Shown piece by piece: positions 6,930 to 38,596 of a stretch of 64,000 bases of DNA. The notes beneath the pieces were generated by a model that made no database searches, was not told the origin of the DNA, and saw nothing but the letters and a program-made list of their open reading frames with translations. Each line of letters begins with the position of its first letter. Within the stretch, counting starts at the first letter, position 1. Position numbers and translations under genes: made by a program. This DNA is from Oceanicola sp. 22II-s10i (lineage in GTDB: Bacteria; Pseudomonadota; Alphaproteobacteria; Rhodobacterales; Rhodobacteraceae). Location of the stretch: NCBI RefSeq assembly GCF_002210105.1, contig NZ_AQQU01000009.1, forward strand, positions 62,001-126,000, read 5' to 3'.

Positions 6930-7352
6930 TCAGGCCGCCAGCGCGTTCTCGATGATACGGACGGCGCCGCGCCGGTCGACGAGGCCGACGTCGAAGCGCA
7001 CCTCGGTCAGAGAACCCTGTGCGTGCCTGTCGGTGTATTCACATGAGGCGCGCCCGATCCGCGCGATCTGGCCCGGACCGAGCTGTGCGAGCGCGCGGTC
7101 GAAATCCGGCCCGCATTTCACCTCGACAAAGATCACCTGAGCGCCGCGGCGGAATATCAGGTCGATTTCGCCGGAGCGGCCACGCCACCGCCGTTCGGCA
7201 AGACGATACCCGCGGTCGCAATAGGTCCGTTCGACGGTCAATTCGGCCGCGGCACCGGCCTGATGGGCGCGGCGGCCGCGCCGCCGGCGCTGGTCCGACG
7301 ACCTGTCACCGGCGGGCGCGGAGGGTCCTGACGGTGGTGTCCAATGTTTCAT
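6930..7352 (-). CDS. yraN: YraN (UPF0102) family nuclease-fold protein
   Basis: Small protein of the YraN family with a Holliday-junction-resolvase-like restriction-endonuclease fold; its exact role is unknown. The PD-(D/E)XK core is visible as GEIDLI at residues 61-66 and FVEVK at 75-79. The first 35 residues are rich in Arg and look disordered. The ATG overlaps the rsmI stop by four bases. The gene pair sits divergent from an LpoA-like gene, the same neighbourhood as yraL-yraM-yraN in enterobacteria. Confidence 0.9.
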
Positions 7353-8212
7353 CCATCCGCATCCCTGCGTCCGAGGGCAAGTGCCCGTTGATACACCTCG
7401 CGGCGGGGCAGACCGGTCGCGCCCGCCACCTTGTCGGCGGCATCCCGGACCGTTCCATCCGAAAGCGCCGCCATCAGCAGGGTGTCTAAATCAGATTCGC
7501 TAATTTTCTCCGAAGCCCCCTGCCCGATCAGCACGACGACCTCGCCCTTGGGCGGCGCATCTTCGCAACCGGCGGCCAGGTCGGCCAGGCCGCCGCGCCG
7601 GACCTCCTCGAACCGCTTGGTCAGCTCGCGGCAGAGCGCGGCGGGCCGGTCGGGCCCAAGCACCGCCGCCGCATCGGCCAGAAGTGCCGCGGTGCGCTTC
7701 GGCGATTCGTAGAGGATCAGCGTCGCCGGCAAACCGGCCAGTTCCTCCAACGCGGAGCGGCGCTTGGCCGAGCTGTTGGGCAGGAATCCCGCGAACAGGA
7801 ACCGGTCCGACGGCAGGCCCGACAGCGTCAGCGCCGTGATCGCGGCCGTCACGCCGGGCGCGGCGGTCACCACGTGCCCGGCCTCGCGCGCCGCCCGGGC
7901 CAGGTCGAAACCGGGATCGGCGACCAGCGGCGTGCCCGCTTCGGAGGCGTAGGCGACCGAGCGGCCGGCGGCCAGGTCGGCCAGCAGCCGCGGGCGCATC
8001 TTGGCCCCGTTGTGGTCGTGATAGGCCACCAGAGGCCGACCGTTCAGCGCGATCCCGTGGATGTCCATCAGCCGCCGCAACGAGCGCGTGTCCTCGGCCG
8101 CCAGCACCTCGGCGCTGGCCAGCGTATCCAGCGCGCGCAGGGTGATGTCGCGGGCCGTGCCGATCGGCACCGAGACAAGGTAAAGCCCCGGCGCAAGTTC
8201 GCCTTTTGACAT
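7349..8212 (-). CDS. rsmI: 16S rRNA (cytidine-1402-2'-O)-methyltransferase
   Basis: SAM-dependent methyltransferase that modifies the 2'-OH of C1402 in the ribosomal P site. The 287-residue protein shows the family signatures LVSVPIGTARDITLRAL at the N-terminus, AAEDTRSLRRLM, SEAGTPLVADPG and the C-terminal GEVVVLIG. ATG 8212 gives the expected beginning; the frame runs open further upstream opposite lpoA, which I discount. It is translated ahead of yraN with an ATGA overlap and diverges from the lipoprotein gene across a 114-base gap. Confidence 0.96.
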   Translation of the reverse strand: MSKGELAPGLYLVSVPIGTARDITLRALDTLASAEVLAAEDTRSLRRLMDIHGIALNGRPLVAYHDHNGAKMRPRLLADLAAGRSVAYASEAGTPLVADPGFDLARAAREAGHVVTAAPGVTAAITALTLSGLPSDRFLFAGFLPNSSAKRRSALEELAGLPATLILYESPKRTAALLADAAAVLGPDRPAALCRELTKRFEEVRRGGLADLAAGCEDAPPKGEVVVLIGQGASEKISESDLDTLLMAALSDGTVRDAADKVAGATGLPRREVYQRALALGRRDADG

Positions 8213-8326
8213 ATTCACCGCTGGATTCCCTTCACGAAAGCCTGATAGTCTCGGCCCGAGACCCACCCCGGCCAAGCCTCCTCTCCGGCGGTCCGGCCAG
8301 GATTTTCCCGTTAGGAGGCTCCCCTC

Positions 8327-9505
8327 ATGTTCGCCCGATTGACCGCTGCCTGCAAGACGCGCGCAGGCCTGCTGTTCGCCATGACCTCGGCGGTGTTTCT
8401 CGCCGCCTGTCAGCCCGTTTCCATGGGCGGCGGATTCGGTGGTCCGGCCATTGACGGCGGCGCGCCGGTGCCTGTTGCGCTTCTCGTGCCCAAGGGCTCG
8501 GGGTCGTCCGGCGACGCGGTGCTGAGCCAGAGCCTCGAGAATGCGGCGCGGCTGGCCATCGCCGATCTGAACGGGGTTCGGATCGACCTGCGGGTCTACG
8601 ACACCGCCGGCAGCGCGGCAGCCGCGCAGGCCGCGGCGACGCGCGCCATCGGCGACGGGGCCAAGATCATCCTCGGCCCGGTCTATGCCGGCAATGCCAA
8701 TGCCGCCGGCCTGGCCGCCGCGCGGGCGGGCGTGAACGTCCTGTCCTTCTCCAACAACAGCTCGATCGCCGGGGGCAACGTCTTTGTCCTGGGCTACACG
8801 TTCGAGAACACGGCGGACCGCCTTGCCTCCTACGCCGTGCGCAACGGCAAGTCGCGCGTCGTGGTGGTGCATTCCGACGACGTCGCGGGCCAGAGCGGCG
8901 CAGCGGCGATCCGGTCGGCCGTGACGCGCAACGGCGGGGCCGTCGTCGGCTCGGTCAGCCACAGCTTCTCGCAGCAGGGCGTCGTCAATTCGGTGCCCCA
9001 GATCCGCTCTGCCGTGCAGTCGGCCAATGCGGATTCGATCTTCATGACCGCCAACACCGCCGGCGCGCTGCCGCTGTTCAGCCAGCTGCTGCCGGAACAG
9101 GGCATTTCCCCCGCGACCACCCAGTTCATCGGCCTGACCCGCTGGGACATCCCGCCGCAGACGCTGGACCTGCCCGGCGTGCAGGGCGGCTGGTTCGCGC
9201 TGCCCGATCCGAACCGCAGCGGCCAGTTCAACAGCCGTTACCAGGCGGCCTATGGCGCCGCGCCGCACCCGATCGGCTCGCTCGCCTATGACGGCATCGC
9301 CGCGATCGGCGCGCTGGTCGCGCAGGGCCGTGGCCTTGGCGCCGGGGACCTGACGCAGGGCGCGGGCTTCGAAGGCGCGGGCGGCGTGTTCCGGCTGCTG
9401 CCCGACGGCACCAGCCAGCGCGGCATGGCCGTTGCGACGATCCGCAACCGTCAGGTCGTCGTGATCGACCCGGCGCCCCGCGCCTTCGGAGGGATCGGAT
9501 TCTGA
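8327..9505 (+). CDS. Penicillin-binding protein activator (LpoA-like lipoprotein)
   Basis: Predicted outer-membrane-anchored lipoprotein with a periplasmic type I ligand-binding fold, the class annotated as penicillin-binding protein activator. A lipobox LAAC puts the modified Cys at residue 28 after a hydrophobic signal. The remainder (about residues 48-390) is a leucine-binding-protein-like domain with repeated small-residue segments (GPVYAGNANAAGLAAA). GGAGG lies 8 bases before ATG 8327. The link to cell-wall synthesis comes from the family and from the conserved neighbours rsmI and yraN; activity toward PBP1a in this group is inference. glnD follows with overlapping stop and start. Confidence 0.85.
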   Translation: MFARLTAACKTRAGLLFAMTSAVFLAACQPVSMGGGFGGPAIDGGAPVPVALLVPKGSGSSGDAVLSQSLENAARLAIADLNGVRIDLRVYDTAGSAAAAQAAATRAIGDGAKIILGPVYAGNANAAGLAAARAGVNVLSFSNNSSIAGGNVFVLGYTFENTADRLASYAVRNGKSRVVVVHSDDVAGQSGAAAIRSAVTRNGGAVVGSVSHSFSQQGVVNSVPQIRSAVQSANADSIFMTANTAGALPLFSQLLPEQGISPATTQFIGLTRWDIPPQTLDLPGVQGGWFALPDPNRSGQFNSRYQAAYGAAPHPIGSLAYDGIAAIGALVAQGRGLGAGDLTQGAGFEGAGGVFRLLPDGTSQRGMAVATIRNRQVVVIDPAPRAFGGIGF

Positions 9506-12273
9506 CCGGCACTGCAGTTTCCATCGGACAGACGCCCGAGATTCCAGACGACCTGATCTGCCCCGCCACCCAGATCGTGGACATCGGGGCGCTGATCAAC
9601 CGGGCCACTGCAGCTGCCCGCTCGCACAAGGATCCGCAGGAGTTCAGGGCCGCGCTGGTTGCGACCCTGTCCGAAGCGAACGAGGCCGGCCGCGCCGCGA
9701 TCGCCGCCGCCTTCGAGGCGCGGCCCTTCGACGCCGCCGCCACGACCCGCGCCTACACCTGGCTGACCGACTGCATCGTCATCGCGACGGTCGAGGCGGT
9801 GCATGCCCATTCCGGCGGCCCCGGCGCCTTTGCGGTGGTCGCGGTCGGCGGCTATGGCCGCGGCGCCATGGCACCGCATTCCGACGTCGACCTGCTGTTC
9901 CTCGCCAAGGGCAAGATCACCAAGGCGCTGGAGAAGTTCATCGAGTCGATGCTCTACATCTTCTGGGACCTGCACCTGAAGGTCGGCCACGCCAGCCGCA
10001 CCATCAAGGACTGCCTGCGCCTGGGGGCCGAGGATTACACGATCCGCACCGCGCTGCTGGAAAACCGCTATCTCTGCGGCGACCGGGCGCTGGCCGACGA
10101 CCTGAACCGCCGCCTGTTCGCCGACCTGTTCCGGGGCACCGAAAGCGACTTCATCGAGGCCAAGCTGGAAGAGCGCCGTGCCCGGCACGAAAAGCAGGGC
10201 GGCCAGCGCTACGTGGTCGAACCCAACGTCAAGGAGGGCAAGGGCGGCCTCCGCGACCTGCAGTCGCTCTACTGGATCGCGAAATACGTCCATGGCGTGA
10301 AATCCGTGGCCGAGCTGGTGGCGCTCGACCTGTTCACCAAGGAAGAGTTCCGCAAGTTCGAGCAGGCCGAGAATTTCCTCTGGGCCGTGCGCTGTCACCT
10401 GCACCTGCTCGCAGGTCGTCCCATGGACCAGCTGACCTTCGACCAGCAGGTCCAGGTCGCCGAACGGATGGGCTATCGCGACCGCGGCGGGCGCCGCGCG
10501 GTCGAGCATTTCATGCAGGACTATTTCCGCCACGCCACCACCACGGGCGAGGTCACGCGCATCTTCCTGACCAAGCTGGAAGCGGCGCATGTGAAGAACG
10601 AGCCGCTGCTGGAACGCATCTTCCGCCGCCGCCCCAAGGCGGTCGGACCCGGCTACCTCGCCATCGGCAACCGGCTGGGGATCGAGGACCGGTCGAAGTT
10701 CCTGGAGGACAAGCTGAACCTGCTGCGCATCTTCGACGAGGCGCTGAAGACCGGGATGCTGATCCACCCTGACGCGATGCGGCTGGTGACGGCCAACCTG
10801 CACCTGATCGACGAGAAGATGCGGCAGGACCCCAAGGCGGCCAAGCTGTTCCTTGGGCTGCTCCTGGACCACGGCAACCCGGAACGTGCCCTGCGCCGGA
10901 TGAACGAACTGGGGGTGCTGTCCGCCTTCATCCCCGAGTTCGAGCCGATCGTCGCGATGATGCAATACAACATGTATCATCACTACACGGTGGACGAACA
11001 CACCATCCAGTGCATCCGCCACCTCGCCCTGATCGAACAGGGCAAGCTGACCGAGGAACTGCCGATCGCCTCGACCATCCTCAAGGAGGGTGTGAACCGC
11101 AAGATACTCTACGTCGCGCTGCTGCTGCACGACATCGGCAAGGGCCGGGACGAGGATCATTCGATCCTCGGCGCCCAGATCGCCCGCCGCGTCGCGCCGC
11201 GCCTCGGACTTAACGAGGAAGAGAGCCAGACGGCGGAATGGCTGGTGCGCCATCACTTGCTGATGTCCGACATGGCCCAGAAACGCGACATCGCCGATCC
11301 CCGGACGGTGCGCGACTTTGCCAAGGCCGTGCAGACGCGGGCGCGGCTGGACCTGCTGACCGTGCTGACCGTCTGCGACATCCGCGGCGTCGGCCCCGGC
11401 ACGTGGAACAACTGGAAGGCCGCCCTGCTGCGCGCGCTCTACCGCCAGACCCGGCGGGCGATGGAGACGGGGCTGGAAGAGGTCAACCGCACCAAGCGCG
11501 AACAGGAGGCGCACAAGGAACTGCGCGCCGCCCTGCCCGACTGGGACAAGGCCGCGCTGGAGGCCGAGCTCGAGCGGCATTACCCGACCTACTGGCAGGG
11601 GCTGCACGTCACCGCCCAGTCGATATTCGCCACCATGCTGCGCGATCTGGACCCGGCCGAGATCCGCATCGACCTGCACCCGGACGAGGACCGCGACGCA
11701 ACCCGCGCGCTGTTCGCCATGGTCGACCACCCCGGCATCTTTGCCCGTCTTGCCGGTGCGCTGGCACTGGTCGGCGCGAACGTGGTCGACGCGCGCAGCT
11801 ACACGACCAAGGACGGTTACGCGACCTCGGCCTTCTGGCTGCAGGATGCGGACGGCCACCCCTACGAGGCCGACCGCCTGCCGCGCCTGACGCGGATGAT
11901 CCACAAGACGCTGAAGGGCGAGGTCGTCGCGCGGGACGAGATGAAGTCGCGCGACAAGATGAAAAAGCGCGAACGCGCCTTCCAGGTGCAGACGGCGATC
12001 AGCTTCGACAACGACGGGTCCGACATCTACACGATCATCGAGGTCGACACCCGCGACCGCCCGGGCCTGCTGTTCGATCTGGCCCGGACGCTGGCCGCGA
12101 GCCATGTCCAGATCGCCAGCGCCGTGATCGCCACCTACGGCGAACAGGCGGTGGACACGTTCTACGTTAAGGACATGTTCGGGCTGAAGCTCTACACCGT
12201 GTCCAAGCGCAAGCAGCTGGAAACCCGCCTGCGCGAGGCGATCGAGGCGGGACAGGAACGGGCGCGGGCCTGA
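9502..12273 (+). CDS. glnD: Bifunctional uridylyltransferase/uridylyl-removing enzyme
   Basis: Nitrogen sensor that uridylylates PII proteins when glutamine is low and removes UMP when it is high. The nucleotidyltransferase motif GGYGRG with SDVDLL lies near residue 116, the HD hydrolase motif LLLHDIGKGRDED near 543, and two C-terminal ACT domains begin near 742 (HPGIFARLAG) and 850 (DRPGLLFDLA). The first usual start codon is GTG 9577 (898 residues) without a ribosome site. I prefer CTG 9502, which overlaps the upstream TGA as CTGA and has GGAGGG eight bases before it, giving 923 residues. No glnB is nearby. Confidence 0.93.
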   Translation: MTGTAVSIGQTPEIPDDLICPATQIVDIGALINRATAAARSHKDPQEFRAALVATLSEANEAGRAAIAAAFEARPFDAAATTRAYTWLTDCIVIATVEAVHAHSGGPGAFAVVAVGGYGRGAMAPHSDVDLLFLAKGKITKALEKFIESMLYIFWDLHLKVGHASRTIKDCLRLGAEDYTIRTALLENRYLCGDRALADDLNRRLFADLFRGTESDFIEAKLEERRARHEKQGGQRYVVEPNVKEGKGGLRDLQSLYWIAKYVHGVKSVAELVALDLFTKEEFRKFEQAENFLWAVRCHLHLLAGRPMDQLTFDQQVQVAERMGYRDRGGRRAVEHFMQDYFRHATTTGEVTRIFLTKLEAAHVKNEPLLERIFRRRPKAVGPGYLAIGNRLGIEDRSKFLEDKLNLLRIFDEALKTGMLIHPDAMRLVTANLHLIDEKMRQDPKAAKLFLGLLLDHGNPERALRRMNELGVLSAFIPEFEPIVAMMQYNMYHHYTVDEHTIQCIRHLALIEQGKLTEELPIASTILKEGVNRKILYVALLLHDIGKGRDEDHSILGAQIARRVAPRLGLNEEESQTAEWLVRHHLLMSDMAQKRDIADPRTVRDFAKAVQTRARLDLLTVLTVCDIRGVGPGTWNNWKAALLRALYRQTRRAMETGLEEVNRTKREQEAHKELRAALPDWDKAALEAELERHYPTYWQGLHVTAQSIFATMLRDLDPAEIRIDLHPDEDRDATRALFAMVDHPGIFARLAGALALVGANVVDARSYTTKDGYATSAFWLQDADGHPYEADRLPRLTRMIHKTLKGEVVARDEMKSRDKMKKRERAFQVQTAISFDNDGSDIYTIIEVDTRDRPGLLFDLARTLAASHVQIASAVIATYGEQAVDTFYVKDMFGLKLYTVSKRKQLETRLREAIEAGQERARA

Positions 12274-12367
12274 TCCCCGGTCGCGCCGCCGCCCGTTCCA
12301 CGCCGGACCTTCCCCGGCTCCTGCGGATGCTGTAATCCTCCGCGCAGCGGCGGGAGAAACGAGCAGC

Positions 12368-13915
12368 ATGAACCCCATTCGCCTTTTGTCGGGCTTCCTC
12401 ACGGTTGGCGCCTGGACCCTGCTTTCCCGCGTCCTCGGCTTTGTCCGTGACGCGATGATCCTTGCCTTCCTCGGCACCGGACCGGCCTACGAGGCCTTCG
12501 TCGTCGCCTTCCGCCTGCCGAACATGTTCCGCCGGTTCTTTGCCGAAGGGGCGTTCAACACCGCCTTCGTGCCGATGTTCTCCAAGCGGCTGGAGGCAGA
12601 GGAGGACGCGAACGGTTTCGCCTCTGACGCCTTTGCCGGGCTGGCGTCGGTGCTGATCGTCATCACCCTGATCGCACTGGCCGCGATGCCCTGGCTGGTG
12701 CTGGCGCTGGCCTCGGGCTTTGCGGGGCAGCCGCAGTATCCGCTGGCGGTGGATTTCGGGCGGATCGCGTTTCCCTACATCCTGTTCATCTCGCTCGCGG
12801 CGCTCCTGTCCGGCGCGCTGAACGCCACCGGACGGTTCACCGCCGCCGCCGCCGCGCCGGTGCTGCTGAACGTGATCCTCGTGTCGATGATGGCGGGGGC
12901 TTCGGTGCTGGGTATCGACGTTTCCCGCGCGCTGATCTGGGCGATCCCCGTGGCGGGCCTGGCGCAGATGGCGCTGGTCTGGACCGCCGCACGCCGGGCC
13001 GGAATCGTGATCCGGCTGAAGCGTCCGCGCCTGACGCCCGACATGCGCCACCTCGTCGCCGTCGCGGTCCCCGCCGCGCTGTCGGGCGGTGTGGTCCAGG
13101 TGAACCTGCTGGTCGGGCAACAGGTCGCGTCCTATTACGACCGCGCCGTCGGCTGGCTGTTCGCGGCGGACCGGCTGTACCAGCTGCCGCTCGGCGTCGT
13201 CGGGATCGCCGTCGGCGTGGTGCTTCTGCCGGACCTGTCCCGCCGCCTGCGGGCGGGCGACACCGCCGGATCGCGCGCCGCGCTGTCGCGGGCGGCCGAG
13301 ATCTCGCTGATGCTGACGATCCCCTCGGCCGTGGCGCTGGTGGTGATCCCGCTGCCGCTCGTGTCGGTGCTGTTCGAACGGGGCGCGACAACGGCGGCGG
13401 ACAGCCGCGCCATCGCGCTGGCCGTTGCCGTCTACGGGCTGGGCCTGCCGGCCTTCGTCATGCAGAAGATCATCCAGCCGCTCTACTTCGCGCGCGAGGA
13501 CACGCGGACCCCGTTCCGCTTCGCGCTGGTGTCGATGGTGGTGAACGCGGCGCTGGCCATTGGCCTTGCCCCGGTGATCGGCTGGATCGCCACGGCCATC
13601 GCAACCACAGCCGCCGCATGGGCCATGGCGCTGCTGCTGATCCTCGGCGCCCGTCCGATGGGCGACGTGGCGCGCTTCGACGACCGTCTGCGCCGCCGCC
13701 TGCCGCGGATCGTGCTGGCCGCACTGATCATGGGCGCGGCGTTGTGGCCGGCCTGGCAGCTTCTGATGCCGTGGCTCGCCATGTCCGGCATCCGCTTCGC
13801 GGCGCTGCTGGTGCTGGTCCTGTGGGGCATGCTGGTCTTCTTTGCCGTCGGCCAGCTGATCGGCGCGGTGAACCTGCCGGAACTGCGCGCGACCCTGCGG
13901 CGCAGAAAAAGCTGA
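12368..13915 (+). CDS. murJ: Lipid II flippase MurJ
   Basis: MATE/MOP-superfamily membrane protein that flips lipid II to the periplasmic face for peptidoglycan synthesis. The 515-residue sequence is almost entirely hydrophobic helices (about 14), starting with the family N-terminus FLTVGAWTLLSRVLGFVRD and RLPNMFRRFFAEGAFNTAFVP. ATG 12368 follows GGGAGA. It lies 94 bases after glnD; a glnD-murJ neighbourhood is common in alphaproteobacteria. Confidence 0.96.
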   Translation: MNPIRLLSGFLTVGAWTLLSRVLGFVRDAMILAFLGTGPAYEAFVVAFRLPNMFRRFFAEGAFNTAFVPMFSKRLEAEEDANGFASDAFAGLASVLIVITLIALAAMPWLVLALASGFAGQPQYPLAVDFGRIAFPYILFISLAALLSGALNATGRFTAAAAAPVLLNVILVSMMAGASVLGIDVSRALIWAIPVAGLAQMALVWTAARRAGIVIRLKRPRLTPDMRHLVAVAVPAALSGGVVQVNLLVGQQVASYYDRAVGWLFAADRLYQLPLGVVGIAVGVVLLPDLSRRLRAGDTAGSRAALSRAAEISLMLTIPSAVALVVIPLPLVSVLFERGATTAADSRAIALAVAVYGLGLPAFVMQKIIQPLYFAREDTRTPFRFALVSMVVNAALAIGLAPVIGWIATAIATTAAAWAMALLLILGARPMGDVARFDDRLRRRLPRIVLAALIMGAALWPAWQLLMPWLAMSGIRFAALLVLVLWGMLVFFAVGQLIGAVNLPELRATLRRRKS

Positions 13916-13980
13916 CCCCGGCATGAAACCGCGACCCGTTCCGCGCGTTATGGCAAGGCGTAACGAGGACGGGGGACGGT

Positions 13981-15543
13981 ATGACCGGCTTGGCGACGAT
14001 CGAAGACGCGAAGGACCGGCGCACCGCCACCACGGCGGCGACGCCCCAGACGCGTATCCGCAGCCTGATCACTGCACAGGAAATGTTTCCGGCCCTTGAA
14101 CGGATGTTCCTCGAGGCCGAGCACGAGATCTGCCTGTCGTTCCGCATCTTCGATGCGCGCACGATGCTGCGCTCGGACGAGGCGAAGGCGCTGGAGCTCA
14201 AGACATGGGCCGATCTCATGGCGCATGTCTCCGGCAAAGGCGTGAAGGTCCGGATGCTGCTGGCCGACTTCGACCCCATTTTCGCCGGGGACCTGCATCG
14301 CGAGGCATGGGCCTCGGCCCGCATCTTTGCCTGCCGCCTGTCCGACGATGCAGAGCTGATCTGCGCGATGCACGAATGCAAATCGGCGCCGATGTGGAAG
14401 TGGATTTTCCGCAAGCCCGTCGCCGACCGGATCGAGGAACTCAAGCGCATCCCGGACGAGACCCGCACGCCGTTCCAGAACCGCGCCATCAAGGGCGACT
14501 GGGAGCTGCGCCCGGTGACGTTGCATCAGAAGCTGGCGGTGGCCGACGGCAAGACCGCCATCATCGGCGGTCTGGACGTCGATGAACGTCGCTGGGACAC
14601 CCAAGACCACGACCAGCGGCAGGACGAGACATGGCACGACGTCAGCGTGCTGGTGCAGGGCCCCGTGACGCGCGCCATCCGCGCGCATTTCGCGGAATGC
14701 TGGAAACGCGGGATGGAGTGCGGCGGGACGGTCTTCACCGAAAAGGTGTCGCCGGTCGAGGATGCCGGCAGTGTGCCGACGCCGAACCTGCCCGCGCCGC
14801 GCGTGCTGCGGACGCTGTCCTGCCGCGGCAACGCGACGATCCAGCTCGGCGCGAAGCCCGAGCTGAAGGAACACGAGGAGGCGCATATCGCGGCCTTCGA
14901 TCGCGCGAAGCGGTCGATCTACATCGAGACCCAGTTCTTCCGCCATGCCCCGATCGCCCGCGCCCTTGCCCGTGCGGCGAAGCGCGAAACGGAGCTGGAA
15001 CTGGTCCTGCTGATGCCGACCGAGCCCGAGCGCATCATCATCGACGGCCAGGAAGGGTTCGACAGCCGTCACGCGCAGGCCCTGCAGATCCGCTGCCTCG
15101 ACATCTGCCGCCGCGCCTTCGGTGACCGGATGACTGTCGTCTCGCCCGCGCAGCCCCGCCCCGCCAAGGAGGGCGAGCGCCTGCCGGTGAAGGGCGCGAG
15201 CATCGTCTATGTCCACTCCAAGGTCACGCTGGTTGATGACCACACCGGCATCGTCGGATCGGCCAACCTGAACGGCCGCTCGATGAGGTGGGACACCGAG
15301 GCCTCGATCATGTTCCACGGGGCCGAGGATGTCGCGGACCTGCGCAATCGGCTGGCGAAGATCTGGCTGAGCGATCACCTCGGCCAGTCGGATCCGCGCC
15401 GTGCCGCCGTCTGGGAAAAGGCCGCGCAGCGCAACGCCAAGCTGGAGCCCGAGGACCGGATCGGCTTCATCATGCCCTACCCGGAAAAGCGCAACCGCCG
15501 CTTTGCCCGGTTCATGCCGATCCTGCCGCCCGAAATGTTCTGA
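13981..15543 (+). CDS. Phospholipase D-like (cardiolipin-synthase-type) protein
   Basis: Member of the phospholipase D superfamily. Two complete HKD motifs are visible: HQKLAVADGKTAIIGG from His182 and HSKVTLVDDHTGIVGSANLN from His412, which together form one active site. No N-terminal membrane segments are seen, unlike typical ClsA enzymes, so the 520-residue protein is probably soluble or peripheral. It could make or cleave phospholipids; the substrate is not predictable. It stands alone on the plus strand and ends three bases before the convergent rhomboid-like gene. Confidence 0.85.
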   Translation: MTGLATIEDAKDRRTATTAATPQTRIRSLITAQEMFPALERMFLEAEHEICLSFRIFDARTMLRSDEAKALELKTWADLMAHVSGKGVKVRMLLADFDPIFAGDLHREAWASARIFACRLSDDAELICAMHECKSAPMWKWIFRKPVADRIEELKRIPDETRTPFQNRAIKGDWELRPVTLHQKLAVADGKTAIIGGLDVDERRWDTQDHDQRQDETWHDVSVLVQGPVTRAIRAHFAECWKRGMECGGTVFTEKVSPVEDAGSVPTPNLPAPRVLRTLSCRGNATIQLGAKPELKEHEEAHIAAFDRAKRSIYIETQFFRHAPIARALARAAKRETELELVLLMPTEPERIIIDGQEGFDSRHAQALQIRCLDICRRAFGDRMTVVSPAQPRPAKEGERLPVKGASIVYVHSKVTLVDDHTGIVGSANLNGRSMRWDTEASIMFHGAEDVADLRNRLAKIWLSDHLGQSDPRRAAVWEKAAQRNAKLEPEDRIGFIMPYPEKRNRRFARFMPILPPEMF

Positions 15544-34518: not shown

Positions 34519-35592
34519 ATGCGCATTTACTCCTGCACCTGCGGCGCGCCGCTGTTCATCGACAACACCCAGTGCACCAGCTGCGGCCGCGCCGCGGGCT
34601 GGTGCGAAAGCTGCGAGGGCATGGCGGGTTTCGACACCGGCGCGGCGGGCGACTGGACCTGCGCGACCTGCGGCACCGCCGCGCGGCCCTGCGCGAACTA
34701 CAGCGGGCCGGGCGTCTGCAACCGCACGGTCCGGGCGGACGATCCGCAGACCCTGTGTCGGCTCTGCGGGCTGAACGACACCGTCCCGAACCTGGAGGTG
34801 GACGGAAACCGCGATCGCTGGGCCCGGCTGGAGGCGGCGAAACGGCGGCTGATCTACACGCTGGACCTGCTGGGGCTGCCCTATGGCACCGACACGACCC
34901 CGCCGCTGCGGTTCTCGTTCCTCGGTGACGGCGAACTGGCCGGACACTGGGTCGGGGCCGAGACCGACCAGGTGCTGACCGGCCATGCCGAGGGGCTGAT
35001 CACCGTGAACATCCGCGAGGCGGACGATGCCGCGCGCGAACAGGTGCGTGTCGACATGGGCGAGGCGCATCGCACGCTGATCGGCCACCTGCGGCACGAG
35101 ATCGGACACTACTACTGGGATCTGCTGATACGCGGGCGGACCGGGGCGGAGCAGGACTTTGCCACCGCCTTCGGCGACCCGAACGATCCGCCCTACGACG
35201 TGGCGCTGGACCGGCACTATGCCGATGGTCCGCCCCCGGACTGGGAAGGCTGGCACGTCAGCGCCTATGCCACCATGCACCCATGGGAGGACTGGGCCGA
35301 GACCTTTGCCCTGTGGCTCGCGATGGCCGGGGTGCTGGACACGGCGCAGTCGCTGGGGATCGTGCACGGGCCCGCCCTGCAGGACACCGCGACGATGGTC
35401 GAGCAATACCGGCGGCTCGGGCTCGCCATGAACGAGCTGACGCGCGAGATGGGGTTGCTGGACTTTGCGCCCGTGGTCATCACGCCGGCCATCGAGGCCA
35501 AGCTGAAGAGCGTCGATTGGCTGATGCGCGGGGCCGCCGTCCCGGCACGGGATCAGGACGCGCCGGGGCAAATGTTCCCGGTTGGTTCATAA
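34519..35592 (+). CDS. Zinc-ribbon putative metallopeptidase (zinc-binding peptidase family)
   Basis: Protein of 357 residues with an N-terminal set of zinc-ribbon cysteines (CTCGAP, CTSCGRAAGWCESC, CATCG, CRLCG) and a gluzincin-like motif HEIGH at 193-197 followed by YYWD and EDWAETFALW. Together these match a family annotated as putative zinc-binding metallopeptidase. No signal peptide is seen, so it is probably cytosolic. Substrate unknown. It follows the DUF1801 gene by 74 bases with no clear terminator between. Confidence 0.85.
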   Translation: MRIYSCTCGAPLFIDNTQCTSCGRAAGWCESCEGMAGFDTGAAGDWTCATCGTAARPCANYSGPGVCNRTVRADDPQTLCRLCGLNDTVPNLEVDGNRDRWARLEAAKRRLIYTLDLLGLPYGTDTTPPLRFSFLGDGELAGHWVGAETDQVLTGHAEGLITVNIREADDAAREQVRVDMGEAHRTLIGHLRHEIGHYYWDLLIRGRTGAEQDFATAFGDPNDPPYDVALDRHYADGPPPDWEGWHVSAYATMHPWEDWAETFALWLAMAGVLDTAQSLGIVHGPALQDTATMVEQYRRLGLAMNELTREMGLLDFAPVVITPAIEAKLKSVDWLMRGAAVPARDQDAPGQMFPVGS

Positions 35593-36013
35593 CCCAAACA
35601 GGTTAGGGATTCGCGCTGCAAATGCGCCTCGGGCATGCTGGGCCGGGGTGATTTTCGGACGGGCGGTCCTGCAGCTCCACGGATTTCGCGGGCCAGTGTC
35701 CGCTGTTCCGGGGCCTCGCGGACCCAGCCCGAAACGCAAGGACTAGGTGCCGCCAAGCTGTTGAAACGGTGGTATATTATGACTGGCGGATATCTCTTTT
35801 GATCCCGAATTGCGCCACGGAAATTCCACATTTTCGACGCATGTTTCCAATCTGGAAATGCTGTGTTTGTGAATCTTCCCTATAGATTTCAGCCGCTTGT
35901 CCTCCATCCTCTCCCTACAGGGGCGAGGGTTTGCCTCTTTTCAGCCCGGTTTGGGCGGGTGGCTGTTGCCACCCTGTTGAATGGTGAAACGGTAACGAGT
36001 GGAGGACATCCGA
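35593..36013 (+). promoter_or_regulatory. Long leader/promoter region of the repeat-protein gene
   Basis: A 420-base gap with no credible gene. It becomes AT-rich from about 35760. It contains a palindrome TTTCCA-ATC-TGGAAA at 35844-35858, CTATAGATTT at 35880 that could hold a -10, and a perfect hairpin GGGTGGC-TGTT-GCCACCC at 35957-35974, 40 bases before the next ATG. The layout suggests a regulated promoter and structured 5' leader. Confidence 0.45.
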
Positions 36014-37024
36014 ATGTTCGGATTCAAGCTATTTTCCGGCAGCCTTTTTGGCGGCCACACGACGACATCCAATGGCATCACCGAAGAACACGGCGTGCTG
36101 GACGGCCTTCTCGGCAACGGCGGGACGGTCGACGATCTGCTGACCGGCGACTCGCGTTCGGATCACACCGAGACCGAAGGGGTCATCGGTGATGTCGCAG
36201 ACGAGGGCGGGCTGATCGACGAACTGCTGGGCGACGGCGGCACGGTGGATCAGGTCCTGACGGGCGACCATCACGCGGACGGATCGGAAACGCACGGTCT
36301 GGTGGACGGCCTGACCGGTGAAGGCGGCGTGGTCGACGAGCTTTTAGGCGACGGCGGCACGGTGGACGACGTCCTGACCGGCGACAATCACCCGGATGGC
36401 AGCGGGACCGACGGGCTGGTCGACAACCTGCTGGGCCACGGCGGCACGGTCGATGAACTGATCGGCTCCGGCGGTTACTCCGGCGGCGGTCATCACGGCG
36501 GCGGGCACCACGGGTATGACGGCCTGACCGACGAAGGCGGCCTCGTCGACGATCTGCTGGGCGACGGCGGCGCGGTCGATGCGCTCCTGACCGGAGACCA
36601 TACCCCGGACGGCACCGAGACCGGGCATGGCCTGCTTGACGAACTGCTGGACGAAGGCGGCACGGTCGACGAACTGCTGGGCGACGGCGGCATCGTGGAC
36701 GACCTGCTGACGGGCGACGACGTGGCGGACGGGTCCGAAACCGACGGGCTGCTGGACGATCTGCTGGCCGAAGGCGGAACCGTGGACGAGCTTGCCGGCA
36801 TCGGCGGCACCGTGGACGACCTGCTGACCGGCGACAACGAGCCGGACGGCAGCCACACGGACGGGCTGGCGGACGACCTGCTTGGTCACGGCGGCACGGT
36901 TGACGAGCTTCTGGGCGAAGGCGGTCTGCTGAACACCGGCTTCATCGACGAAGACGCGCCCTGCGAGGACGAGGAGGACGAAGACGACGGTCTGCTGGCC
37001 GGGCTGTTCGACGGCCTGTTCTGA
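36014..37024 (+). CDS. Acidic 39-residue tandem-repeat protein
   Basis: A 336-residue protein I cannot place in a family. It consists of units with consensus GLLDDLLGEGG / TVDELLGDGG / TVDDLLTGD followed by about two residues and PDGSETD. Full 39-residue units span residues 56-94, 95-133, 206-244 and 245-283; shorter variants are 27-55, 134-169, 170-205 and 284-304. Unit four is interrupted by a Gly/His run (GGGHHGGGHH). It has one Lys, one Arg, no Trp and one Cys, near an acidic cluster CEDEEDEDD. The ends are hydrophobic (FGFKLFSGSLFGG; GLLAGLFDGLF). No signal peptide. GGAGG eight bases before ATG 36014 sets the start. Calcium binding or type I secretion is speculation. Confidence 0.85.
   Translation: MFGFKLFSGSLFGGHTTTSNGITEEHGVLDGLLGNGGTVDDLLTGDSRSDHTETEGVIGDVADEGGLIDELLGDGGTVDQVLTGDHHADGSETHGLVDGLTGEGGVVDELLGDGGTVDDVLTGDNHPDGSGTDGLVDNLLGHGGTVDELIGSGGYSGGGHHGGGHHGYDGLTDEGGLVDDLLGDGGAVDALLTGDHTPDGTETGHGLLDELLDEGGTVDELLGDGGIVDDLLTGDDVADGSETDGLLDDLLAEGGTVDELAGIGGTVDDLLTGDNEPDGSHTDGLADDLLGHGGTVDELLGEGGLLNTGFIDEDAPCEDEEDEDDGLLAGLFDGLF
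36092..36925 (+). repeat. 117-bp coding tandem repeat array
   Basis: Eight in-frame units encode the 39-residue motif: 36092-36178 (short), 36179-36295, 36296-36412, 36413-36520 (variant), 36521-36628 (variant), 36629-36745, 36746-36862 and 36863-36925 (partial). Copies differ at many synonymous positions, so they are not recent duplications and the protein pattern seems maintained. Confidence 0.9.
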
Positions 37025-37270
37025 GGCCGTCGGGACGGACCGGCGGGTCCGGCGCCCGGCACGTGCCGCGGGTGCCGGAGCATGCGGGGCCTACCTCGCT
37101 GCGGACGAGCCATCCCGACGTCTCCCTTGCATCCGACTCCTCCGGGTGCACACCGATCCGTCCACCGGTCCCGGCATGTCTTCGCCGGGGCCGGTTCTTT
37201 GTGCGTGACCGGCGGCGATGATGGACAAATGCCCCGGTCTGTGGAATGGGAGCGCGTCAAGGAGACGCCC

Positions 37271-38596
37271 ATGACCACCACCCGTTTCGCCCCTTCGCCG
37301 ACCGGTCACATCCACGTCGGCAACCTGCGCACCGCGCTGTTCAACTGGCTGATCGCCCGCAAGGCCGGCGGCACCTTCATCCTGCGCATCGACGACACGG
37401 ACCCCGACCGGTCCAAGGAAGAATACGTCGATGCGATCAAAGAGGATCTGGACTGGCTGGGCCTGCACTGGGACCGGGTGGAACGGCAATCGCTGCGACT
37501 GGACCGCTATGCCGAGGCGGCGGACAAACTGCGCGGGATGGGTCGGTTCTATGAGGCGTTCGAGACGCCGACCGAACTGGACCTCAAGCGCAAGAAGCAA
37601 CTGAACATGGGCAAACCGCCGGTCTACGACCGCGCGGCGCTGGCGCTGTCGGATGCCGAGAAGGACAGGCTGAGGGCCGAACGCGGGGCGGGCGTCTGGC
37701 GATTCAAGCTGGACCAGCAGCGGATCGAATGGCCGGACGGTATCCTCGGGCCGATCTCGATCGACGCGGCCTCCGTGTCCGACCCGGTTCTGATCCGCGC
37801 GGATGGTCAGGTGCTCTATACGCTGGCCTCGGTCGTGGACGACACCGAGATGGGCGTGACCCACGTCGTGCGCGGGTCGGACCACGTCACCAACACCGCG
37901 ACGCAGATCCAGATCATCGAGGCGCTTGGCGGCACCCCGCCCGCATTTGCGCACCATTCCCTGCTGACCGGCCCGCAGGGCGAGGCGCTGTCGAAACGGC
38001 TCGGCGTGCTGTCGATCCGGCAGCTGCGCGAACGCGGCGTGGCACCGATGGCGCTGCTGTCGCTGATGGCGCGGCTCGGGTCGTCGCAGCCGGTGGAACT
38101 GCACGAAAAGCCCGAGGACCTGCTCGACGGCTTCGACATCTCGACCTTCGGCGCGCCGCCGACCAAGTTCGACGAACACGACCTGTTCCCGCTGACGGCA
38201 CGCGTCCTGCAGGGCACCCCCCTGTCCGCAGTGGCCGACCGCATCCGCGCCGCGGGTGTGCCCGACGATCAGGCCGAGCGGTTCTGGACCGTGGTCCGCG
38301 ACAACATCACCACCCTCGACGAGGTCGACGGCTGGTGGACCATGTTCAGCGAGGGCGCAGACCCCGCGATCGAGGACGAAGACCGGGATTTCATCGCCGA
38401 GGCGATGGCGCTGCTGCCCGAGGGGCCGTGGACCGATGCGACATGGGGCGAATGGACCGCGGCGGTGAAGGACAAGACCGGCCGCAAGGGCAAGGGGCTG
38501 TTCATGCCGCTACGCAAGGCCGTGACCGGCCAGGCGCATGGTCCGGACATGAGCCAGGTGATGCCGCTCATGCGGGTCATCCGGGCGAAGGGCTGA
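37271..38596 (+). CDS. gltX: Glutamyl-tRNA synthetase
   Basis: Class I synthetase charging tRNA-Glu. APSPTGHIHVGNLRTALFNW carries the HIGH motif at residues 13-18, and the KMSKS-type loop is ALSKRLG near residue 240. The 441-residue length and the short anticodon-binding part are normal for one of the two GltX forms common in alphaproteobacteria; charging of tRNA-Gln with Glu is possible if GatCAB is present. AAGGAGA precedes ATG 37271. It is convergent with the next gene. Confidence 0.94.
   Translation: MTTTRFAPSPTGHIHVGNLRTALFNWLIARKAGGTFILRIDDTDPDRSKEEYVDAIKEDLDWLGLHWDRVERQSLRLDRYAEAADKLRGMGRFYEAFETPTELDLKRKKQLNMGKPPVYDRAALALSDAEKDRLRAERGAGVWRFKLDQQRIEWPDGILGPISIDAASVSDPVLIRADGQVLYTLASVVDDTEMGVTHVVRGSDHVTNTATQIQIIEALGGTPPAFAHHSLLTGPQGEALSKRLGVLSIRQLRERGVAPMALLSLMARLGSSQPVELHEKPEDLLDGFDISTFGAPPTKFDEHDLFPLTARVLQGTPLSAVADRIRAAGVPDDQAERFWTVVRDNITTLDEVDGWWTMFSEGADPAIEDEDRDFIAEAMALLPEGPWTDATWGEWTAAVKDKTGRKGKGLFMPLRKAVTGQAHGPDMSQVMPLMRVIRAKG

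Follow-up and report, generated by a model that had tools for sequence, protein, structure and literature searches.

The locus and its product

The window analysed here, a stretch of 64,000 nucleotides from Oceanicola sp. 22II-s10i, contains a gene for an acidic protein made of repeats ('the repeat gene'), which lies between a gene for a Peptidase_Mx protein and gltX (Table 1). The repeat gene begins with the ATG at 36014, ends with the stop codon at 37022-37024 and is preceded by a GGAGG Shine-Dalgarno sequence. Six other genomes of the same genus-level group, the Pseudooceanicola group, carry it: Pseudooceanicola atlanticus, P. nanhaiensis, P. onchidii and P. nitratireducens, Primorskyibacter flagellatus CGMCC 1.12664 and Maritimibacter alkaliphilus SY-2-18. 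Alignments of the upstream regions show that the TAACGAGT leader is kept in five of these seven orthologues, and changed in P. flagellatus and P. nitratireducens. Evidence for the terminator-like hairpin that follows the gene is weak, since the one found compares with 0.9 expected in shuffles. Rfam searches around the gene gave no match at the gathering score.

Table 1. Features of the repeat gene and its surroundings (window positions)
Feature	Position	Strand	Basis or remark
Peptidase_Mx (PF15887) gene	34519..35592	+	5' neighbour
Palindrome GTTTCC-N5-(G/C)GAAA, candidate operator	35843..35858		155 bp 5' of the start codon
Leader: TAACGAGT and Shine-Dalgarno sequence	35991..36013	+	Upstream alignments
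Acidic repeat protein gene, 336 aa	36014..37024	+	Open frame; period 39/10; dN/dS lowest among six frames
Short N-terminal tip, MFGFKLFSGSLFGG...	36014..36073	+	Alignment; includes one of the protein's two basic residues
Repeat block 1: three 39-residue units and a two-decad end unit	36077..36466	+	
Gly/His-rich insert	36467..36520	+	Alignment; insert here in 5/7 genus orthologues, sequence unconserved
Repeat block 2: three 39-residue units and a two-decad end unit	36521..36925	+	
Acidic tail, then hydrophobic C-terminus GLLAGLFDGLF	36926..37021	+	
Terminator-like hairpin between repeat gene and gltX	37164..37195	+	One found vs 0.9 expected in shuffles
gltX	37271..38596	+	3' neighbour in 7/7 genus orthologues

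Lysine and arginine occur only twice in the protein (K5 and R48), yet there are 16 histidines. Across eight repeat-protein sequences, Asp and Glu together make up 25-31% of residues and Lys and Arg 0.6-2.1%, and six of the seven genus orthologues have one to three cysteines. An earlier note, made from the letters alone, had drawn attention to the two basic residues, the Gly/His-rich insert, the hydrophobic ends (MFGFKLF... and ...GLLAGLFDGLF) and the lack of a signal peptide; all are as it described, the last by inspection, by which none is visible. The two ends are also largely kept among homologues, with changes of the exact letters. In all seven genus orthologues, MF opens the protein (in one from a GTG start codon) and leads into a short run of mostly hydrophobic residues, and the last residues are hydrophobic or aromatic. 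A homologue from Salipiger bermudensis, strain DP6N14-6, ends in DEEDGLLSDLFG.

Architecture of the repeats

The identity autocorrelation of the protein is 0.407 at a lag of 39 residues and 0.273 at a lag of 10, and in 1000 residue shuffles the best lag never exceeded 0.235. The consensus of 51 units from eight proteins is GLVDDLLAEGGLVDELLGDGGTVDDLLTGDDHPDGSETD, and each 39-residue unit consists of three ten-residue pieces ('decads') and a nine-residue spacer. A codon-level pattern of the unit core matches the window four times, always within the gene, and does so in none of 100 shuffles. The 'eight related units' of the earlier note are thus a fair count, comprising six complete 39-mers, three on either side of the insert, and two truncated two-decad units, one at the end of each block; the inner period of about 10 that it reported likewise stands above the shuffles.

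The units are not interchangeable. In five orthologues, the first unit of both blocks carries (I/L/V)T and mostly acidic residues in place of LLxE, and same-position units of different species resemble each other more closely (identity 0.632, n = 56) than units compared across positions do (0.527, n = 280), a difference that none of 2000 permutations of the labels reached. Counted as the number of complete linkers, the units number 3+3 in four of the seven genus orthologues (the window, P. onchidii, P. flagellatus and P. atlanticus), 2+3 in P. nitratireducens, and 3+5 in S. bermudensis DP6N14-6; the closely related pair P. nanhaiensis and M. alkaliphilus have eight units without a clear insert. 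Five of the seven genus orthologues and the Salipiger protein have the insert between the blocks, and its sequence varies freely. Repeat number, which the earlier note had thought worth following in homologues, accordingly varies little, and the linker counts speak for little expansion or contraction within the genus. Two blocks around a variable insert in five of seven orthologues, together with position-specific units, indicate a fixed design rather than an expanding satellite.

Coding and selection

In the closest pair of orthologues (M. alkaliphilus SY-2-18 and P. nanhaiensis; 383 codons, 91% amino-acid identity), the frame of the repeat gene has a dS of 0.512 and a dN of 0.047, a ratio of 0.092. 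With stop-containing codons left out, the other two sense frames and the three antisense frames give ratios of 0.19 to 4.95. Ten more distant orthologue pairs give 0.23-0.39 over aligned units, and the units of the window gene, pooled against each other, have a dS of 0.80 and a dN of 0.26. The repeat gene is real and under purifying selection, and the suggestion that the repeat pattern is held by selection, first made from the synonymous divergence between copies, is upheld.

The repeats are also spanned by long antisense ORFs (VAxQQVxxxAAVAxQxV-like), at 36344-36889 on the minus strand of the window and in several orthologues. Their existence, and the fairly low ratio (0.19) of one antisense frame, could be taken to mean that the plus-strand ORF is open only because the DNA is GC-rich or because the opposite strand carries a gene. 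We find this scarcely credible: the plus frame has the lowest dN/dS of the six (0.09), the start region and architecture are conserved among orthologues, and the GC3 of the gene is 0.82. The substitution pattern of one close pair, too, favours the plus frame over the antisense ORFs. The silent sites of the gene also diverge faster than those of gltX and mgtE, as judged from the closest genome pair, in which dS is 0.512 for the repeat gene, 0.141 for gltX and 0.200 for mgtE (the last in an ungapped comparison). The Peptidase_Mx gene was left out of this comparison, its alignment being out of register (12.7% identity).

Distribution and neighbourhood

gltX was detected in 21 of the 22 genomes of the genus, the exception being only 66% complete. 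Seven of these 21 have the repeat gene immediately before gltX and on its strand; for the remaining 14, the ORF lists show no acidic repeat ORF within 1.5 kb upstream of gltX. A genome-wide alignment search of the genus returned the same seven carriers and one weak match (E 5.9e-6) to a protein of a bap cluster (discussed later), and a single-protein search gave weak matches also to bap-cluster proteins in three genomes, G003, G021 and G023. In a gltX tree, all seven carriers fall inside one group of 12 (support 95/93), and the carrier label requires four changes, as few as which were needed in 14 of 500 shuffles.

Beyond the genus, the gene is rare. Three of 394 genomes in a sample of the family matched: the source genome itself, P. 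onchidii, and a third, G270, whose match (E 7e-13) is to an ORF that runs off the contig end and has no 39-residue unit. The codon-level pattern, run over contigs of 84,980 species, found ten stretches, two of them unrelated and eight true; the latter are six carriers of the genus and two S. bermudensis records, the only two records that the scans gave outside it. Within the genus of one Salipiger carrier, two of 20 genomes match, and gltX is absent from the ORFs listed about 6 kb either side of the repeat gene in DP6N14-6. An alignment-based locus search confirmed none of 594 pattern stretches, possibly through low-complexity filtering. Viral contigs held no exact match to the codon-level pattern, and plasmids no tblastn match to the repeat protein with the low-complexity filter on. 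The repeat gene is, then, lineage-restricted, in a small group of marine bacteria.

The 5' neighbours at the seven genus loci are Peptidase_Mx-, trmB- or DUF-like, as recognised by resemblance (the Peptidase_Mx gene of the window was scanned). The nearest gltX relative, G007, lacks the repeat gene; in it, a Peptidase_Mx-like gene, also identified by resemblance, ends about 110 bp 5' of gltX. No type I secretion system (T1SS) genes (LssB/HlyD/TolC) lie beside the repeat gene in the seven genus loci read. Since the 5' neighbour varies by species and gltX alone is constant, no obvious partner gene travels with the repeat gene.

Family searches and predicted structure

For the window protein, neither Pfam nor NCBIfam gave a match above cut-off, with E values up to 10, nor did PHROGs at 0.1; among PDB sequences, only two matches were returned, with E values of 0.43 and 0.49. 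Five genus orthologues searched against Pfam, and three of the five together with the Salipiger protein against NCBIfam, likewise gave nothing above cut-off. The best Pfam line among them is DUF2196, which scores 23.3 bits where 25 are required, on a 23-residue part of one orthologue. Neither the RTX nonapeptide GGxGxDxUx (PF00353) nor the BapA prefix-like N-terminal domain (PF22783 / NF033677; Pfam and NCBIfam) was matched in the window protein, even at an E value of 10. The earlier note knew of no described family with this repeat, and the sequence family is indeed missing from the libraries searched. Literature searches, judged by the opening parts of the abstracts, gave no description of the repeat protein or of the palindromic element introduced below.

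AlphaFold gave no tertiary fold for the whole protein (mean pLDDT 49.2, seven alignment rows) or for one block (51.2, 19 rows). Both models place a helix of six or seven residues in most decads and contain no strands. They are no more than a hint of short helices on flexible glycine linkers; the protein may be largely unstructured or weakly helical.

Likeness to BapA-type and RTX proteins

Acidic, low-complexity proteins built of repeats, possibly acting at the surface, have precedents. One is BapA of Paracoccus denitrificans, a predicted T1SS substrate needed for biofilm, with 2,211 residues, 891 Asp-Ala dipeptides and T1SS genes of its own adjoining (PMC5588039). The repeat protein resembles BapA in being alphaproteobacterial, extremely acidic, highly repetitive and of low complexity, with ends that are more hydrophobic (PMC5588039); it differs in its length of 336 residues, its 39-residue unit, and its lack of a BapA_N match and of a T1SS neighbour. 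With RTX proteins (PF00353) it has in common acidity, Gly/Asp-rich repeats and, presumptively, export by a T1SS, but it has no PF00353 match, its period is 10/39, and the low-confidence model shows helices, not strands.

Closer to hand, larger acidic proteins with loose ten-residue repeats have a TIGR03375 exporter and a TolC-like ORF nearby in G003, G021, G023 and the source genome (G000, contig C21), the TolC-like ORFs of all but G023 being recognised by resemblance; BapA_N proteins were identified only in the clusters of G023 and the source genome. The cluster of the source genome (locus L076, G000:C21, stretches 702-2789 and 7034-15068, both on the minus strand) comprises two BapA_N proteins, a TIGR03375 exporter, an Omp85-domain protein and acidic repeat proteins, one of them with about 20 TDGTDP hexapeptides, along with HlyD- and TolC-like ORFs assigned by resemblance. 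At a contig end in G023, an acidic GLLDGVVGDGGLVDSALDTVTG-type repeat protein sits beside a TIGR03375 exporter and TolC-like and BapA_N proteins.

These proteins share with the repeat protein their composition and the loose placing of G, D and L/V about every ten residues, but lack the 39-residue unit. The repeat protein could in principle be a true BapA-type, type I secreted adhesin derived from such GLLGDLTGND-type cluster proteins: both are acidic, poor in Lys and Arg, and rich in G-hydrophobic-hydrophobic-x-x-hydrophobic-x-G. Without composition correction, an HMM of the unit scores all five bap-cluster proteins at 27.5-311.8 bits, against maxima of 14.9-48.4 in 40 residue shuffles per protein, and scores all five above local shuffles as well. 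In three, the real sequence outscores the reversed one (110.7 v 88.6, 123.8 v 63.3 and 311.8 v 228.5 bits), but in the other two, both from the source genome, reversal raises the score (193.8 reversed v 106.9 real, and 43.2 v 27.5), and in all five the reversed scores exceed the local-shuffle maxima. With HMMER's standard composition correction, the unit HMM rises above shuffles in one protein only (G003, 19.7 bits), and the decad HMM in none of the five.

The reversed-sequence scores mean that the likeness is mostly one of composition and spacing. Homology to the bap-cluster repeats was set aside after these two controls, and because the likeness failed them we do not call the repeat protein a BapA relative. 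It has no BapA_N domain and no T1SS neighbours, moreover, and LssB-type T1SSs occur in only five of the 22 genomes and one of the seven carriers, so that descent from these adhesins appears very unlikely. An LssB-type T1SS was also rejected as a dedicated exporter of the repeat protein, six of the seven carriers having no match at E 1e-120.

A palindrome shared with a giant RTX gene

The palindrome GTTTCC-N5-(G/C)GAAA occurs exactly in the upstream regions of six of the seven orthologues, ending 107-155 bp before the start, although these six sites are in-sample because the palindrome was spotted by eye and tested afterwards. The window has one site against 0.03 expected, and three of 100 shuffles have one; mononucleotide shuffles of the 300-bp upstream regions contained the exact palindrome in two of 14,000. 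The upstream regions themselves are poorly conserved, with a mean column identity of 0.45-0.48. Even with two mismatches allowed, the palindrome is absent from the 600 bp 5' of the P. nitratireducens repeat gene and from the 332 bp 5' of the Salipiger one.

Sites were listed in seven genomes: the source genome (G000), G005, G006, G007, G009, G015 and G019. Counted by strand, the palindrome matched 47 times and its reversed pattern 20 times; in G019 the reversed control nearly equals the palindrome count (8 v 9). Eight palindromic sites are counted on both strands, and the 47 matches thus represent 39 distinct sites, whose adjacent genes were called with a home-made codon-model gene caller. Five of the 39 lie 5' of the repeat gene, and another five lie 475-512 bp 5' of a gene for a giant RTX protein, in G000, G006, G007, G009 and G015. 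One site (G000) precedes an acidic M8-like protease in which no signal peptide is evident, and one (G007) precedes a curlin-like protein by 653 bp (PF07012, 21.3 bits against a cut-off of 20.7). Twelve sites are inside ORFs, and the remaining 15 have neighbours without an evident surface role or, for one of them, no gene called alongside. In G005 and G019, the palindrome also precedes, by about 130 bp, an acidic protein of similar appearance in the two genomes that contains MIELLV(I/L)...ATIG; the G019 copy matches no Pfam family at E 0.001.

The five giant RTX genes are apparently orthologous, being so called for their common upstream leader and their RTX motifs, of which the parts read contain four to 15 copies. 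That of the source genome has RTX, cadherin, CshA-repeat, Ig-like and Hint domains, from which it is predicted to be a surface adhesin. Most of the other palindrome sites have no comparable connection with surface genes. G005 and G019 carry the repeat gene and have no palindrome 5' of an RTX gene, and G007 has the RTX-linked palindrome without the repeat gene. In the source genome, the bap cluster has no palindrome with one mismatch allowed, and six other RTX stretches, which may not all cover the promoter, yielded only a single one-mismatch site. In the alignment of the RTX upstream regions, the most conserved windows are those of the leader, not of the palindrome.

This RTX leader, TGCCCGACTGGGGGGC, is identical in all five genomes and is followed by a CATCCGGAAGGATG-like inverted repeat. 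It runs from about 287 bp 5' of the RTX start in the source genome (G000:C7), and from 246-282 bp 5' in the other four. It is probably not an ORF, since the frame is broken by stops at different places, and no Rfam match to the copy of the source genome reaches the gathering score; it is possibly a structured regulatory RNA.

The presence of the palindrome 5' of the repeat gene, and of the same element 5' of a giant RTX gene, is new. That two unrelated gene families keep this palindrome is the best clue to function that we have, and suggests a role at the cell surface.

Proposed function of the repeat protein

Our preferred reading, to which we assign a probability of about 0.4, is that the protein is exported to the surface or matrix, where its acidic units bind divalent cations. 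It would act outside the cell, as a component of the surface or of the biofilm matrix, having left unprocessed through a PrtD-type T1SS. Its evenly spaced patches of Asp and Glu might bind Ca2+ or other cations, or bridge polysaccharide, and cation binding would stiffen the two multivalent arms. Expression might be set, jointly with that of the large RTX adhesin, through the palindrome GTTTCC-N5-GGAAA. A surface or matrix role with type I export had been among the proposals of the earlier note, the other two being an ion-binding scaffold and a phase-separating linker; of the former proposal, the first part gains indirect support from the common upstream palindrome, and the second we infer, as we do location, function, cation binding and the palindrome as a regulator's site.

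PrtD-type T1SSs occur in 21 of the 22 genus genomes, the source genome among them, the one miss being the genome that is 66% complete; they are so nearly universal that their presence does not discriminate. The acidic tail and hydrophobic end would be compatible with a T1SS signal, and the C-termini of seven RTX proteins from the source genome, one of which ends in GDFLFL, have no clear signature in common with the repeat protein.

Cysteines are unusual in RTX-like exoproteins, and their occurrence in six of the seven genus orthologues therefore counts against a surface protein. It would fit a protein that stays in the cytoplasm as a disordered acidic scaffold or cation buffer, with the repeats as multivalent stickers and the hydrophobic ends docking to the membrane or to a partner; a granule, a condensate and a nucleic-acid mimic are variants of the same idea. 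No Sec signal is seen by inspection; no secretion gene is nearby, the neighbours being of the housekeeping type (gltX, Peptidase_Mx, mgtE); and the AlphaFold models, with their low confidence and short isolated helices, agree. The common upstream palindrome points instead to surface genes, however, and only gltX is constant at the locus, with no obvious partner gene travelling along. Taken together, these variants are possible, if on the unlikely side.

A bolder form of our preferred reading, export to the surface or matrix, sees in the repeat protein a new class of matrix protein: two-armed (3+3) modules of fixed length, made of acidic helical decads and stiffened by Ca2+. In Pseudooceanicola, an undescribed regulator of the surface matrix, reading GTTTCC-N5-GGAAAC, would have it expressed together with an RTX/cadherin/Hint adhesin and in some cases with curlin. 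We regard this more specific proposal as doubtful.

Significance

The repeat protein is a clean case of repeat units held by selection instead of drifting in number. If export to the surface or matrix is correct, a family of acidic matrix proteins with a conserved modular count would be added to those in the libraries searched, and the palindrome could lead to a regulator, and to the set of genes for surface attachment, in this marine lineage.
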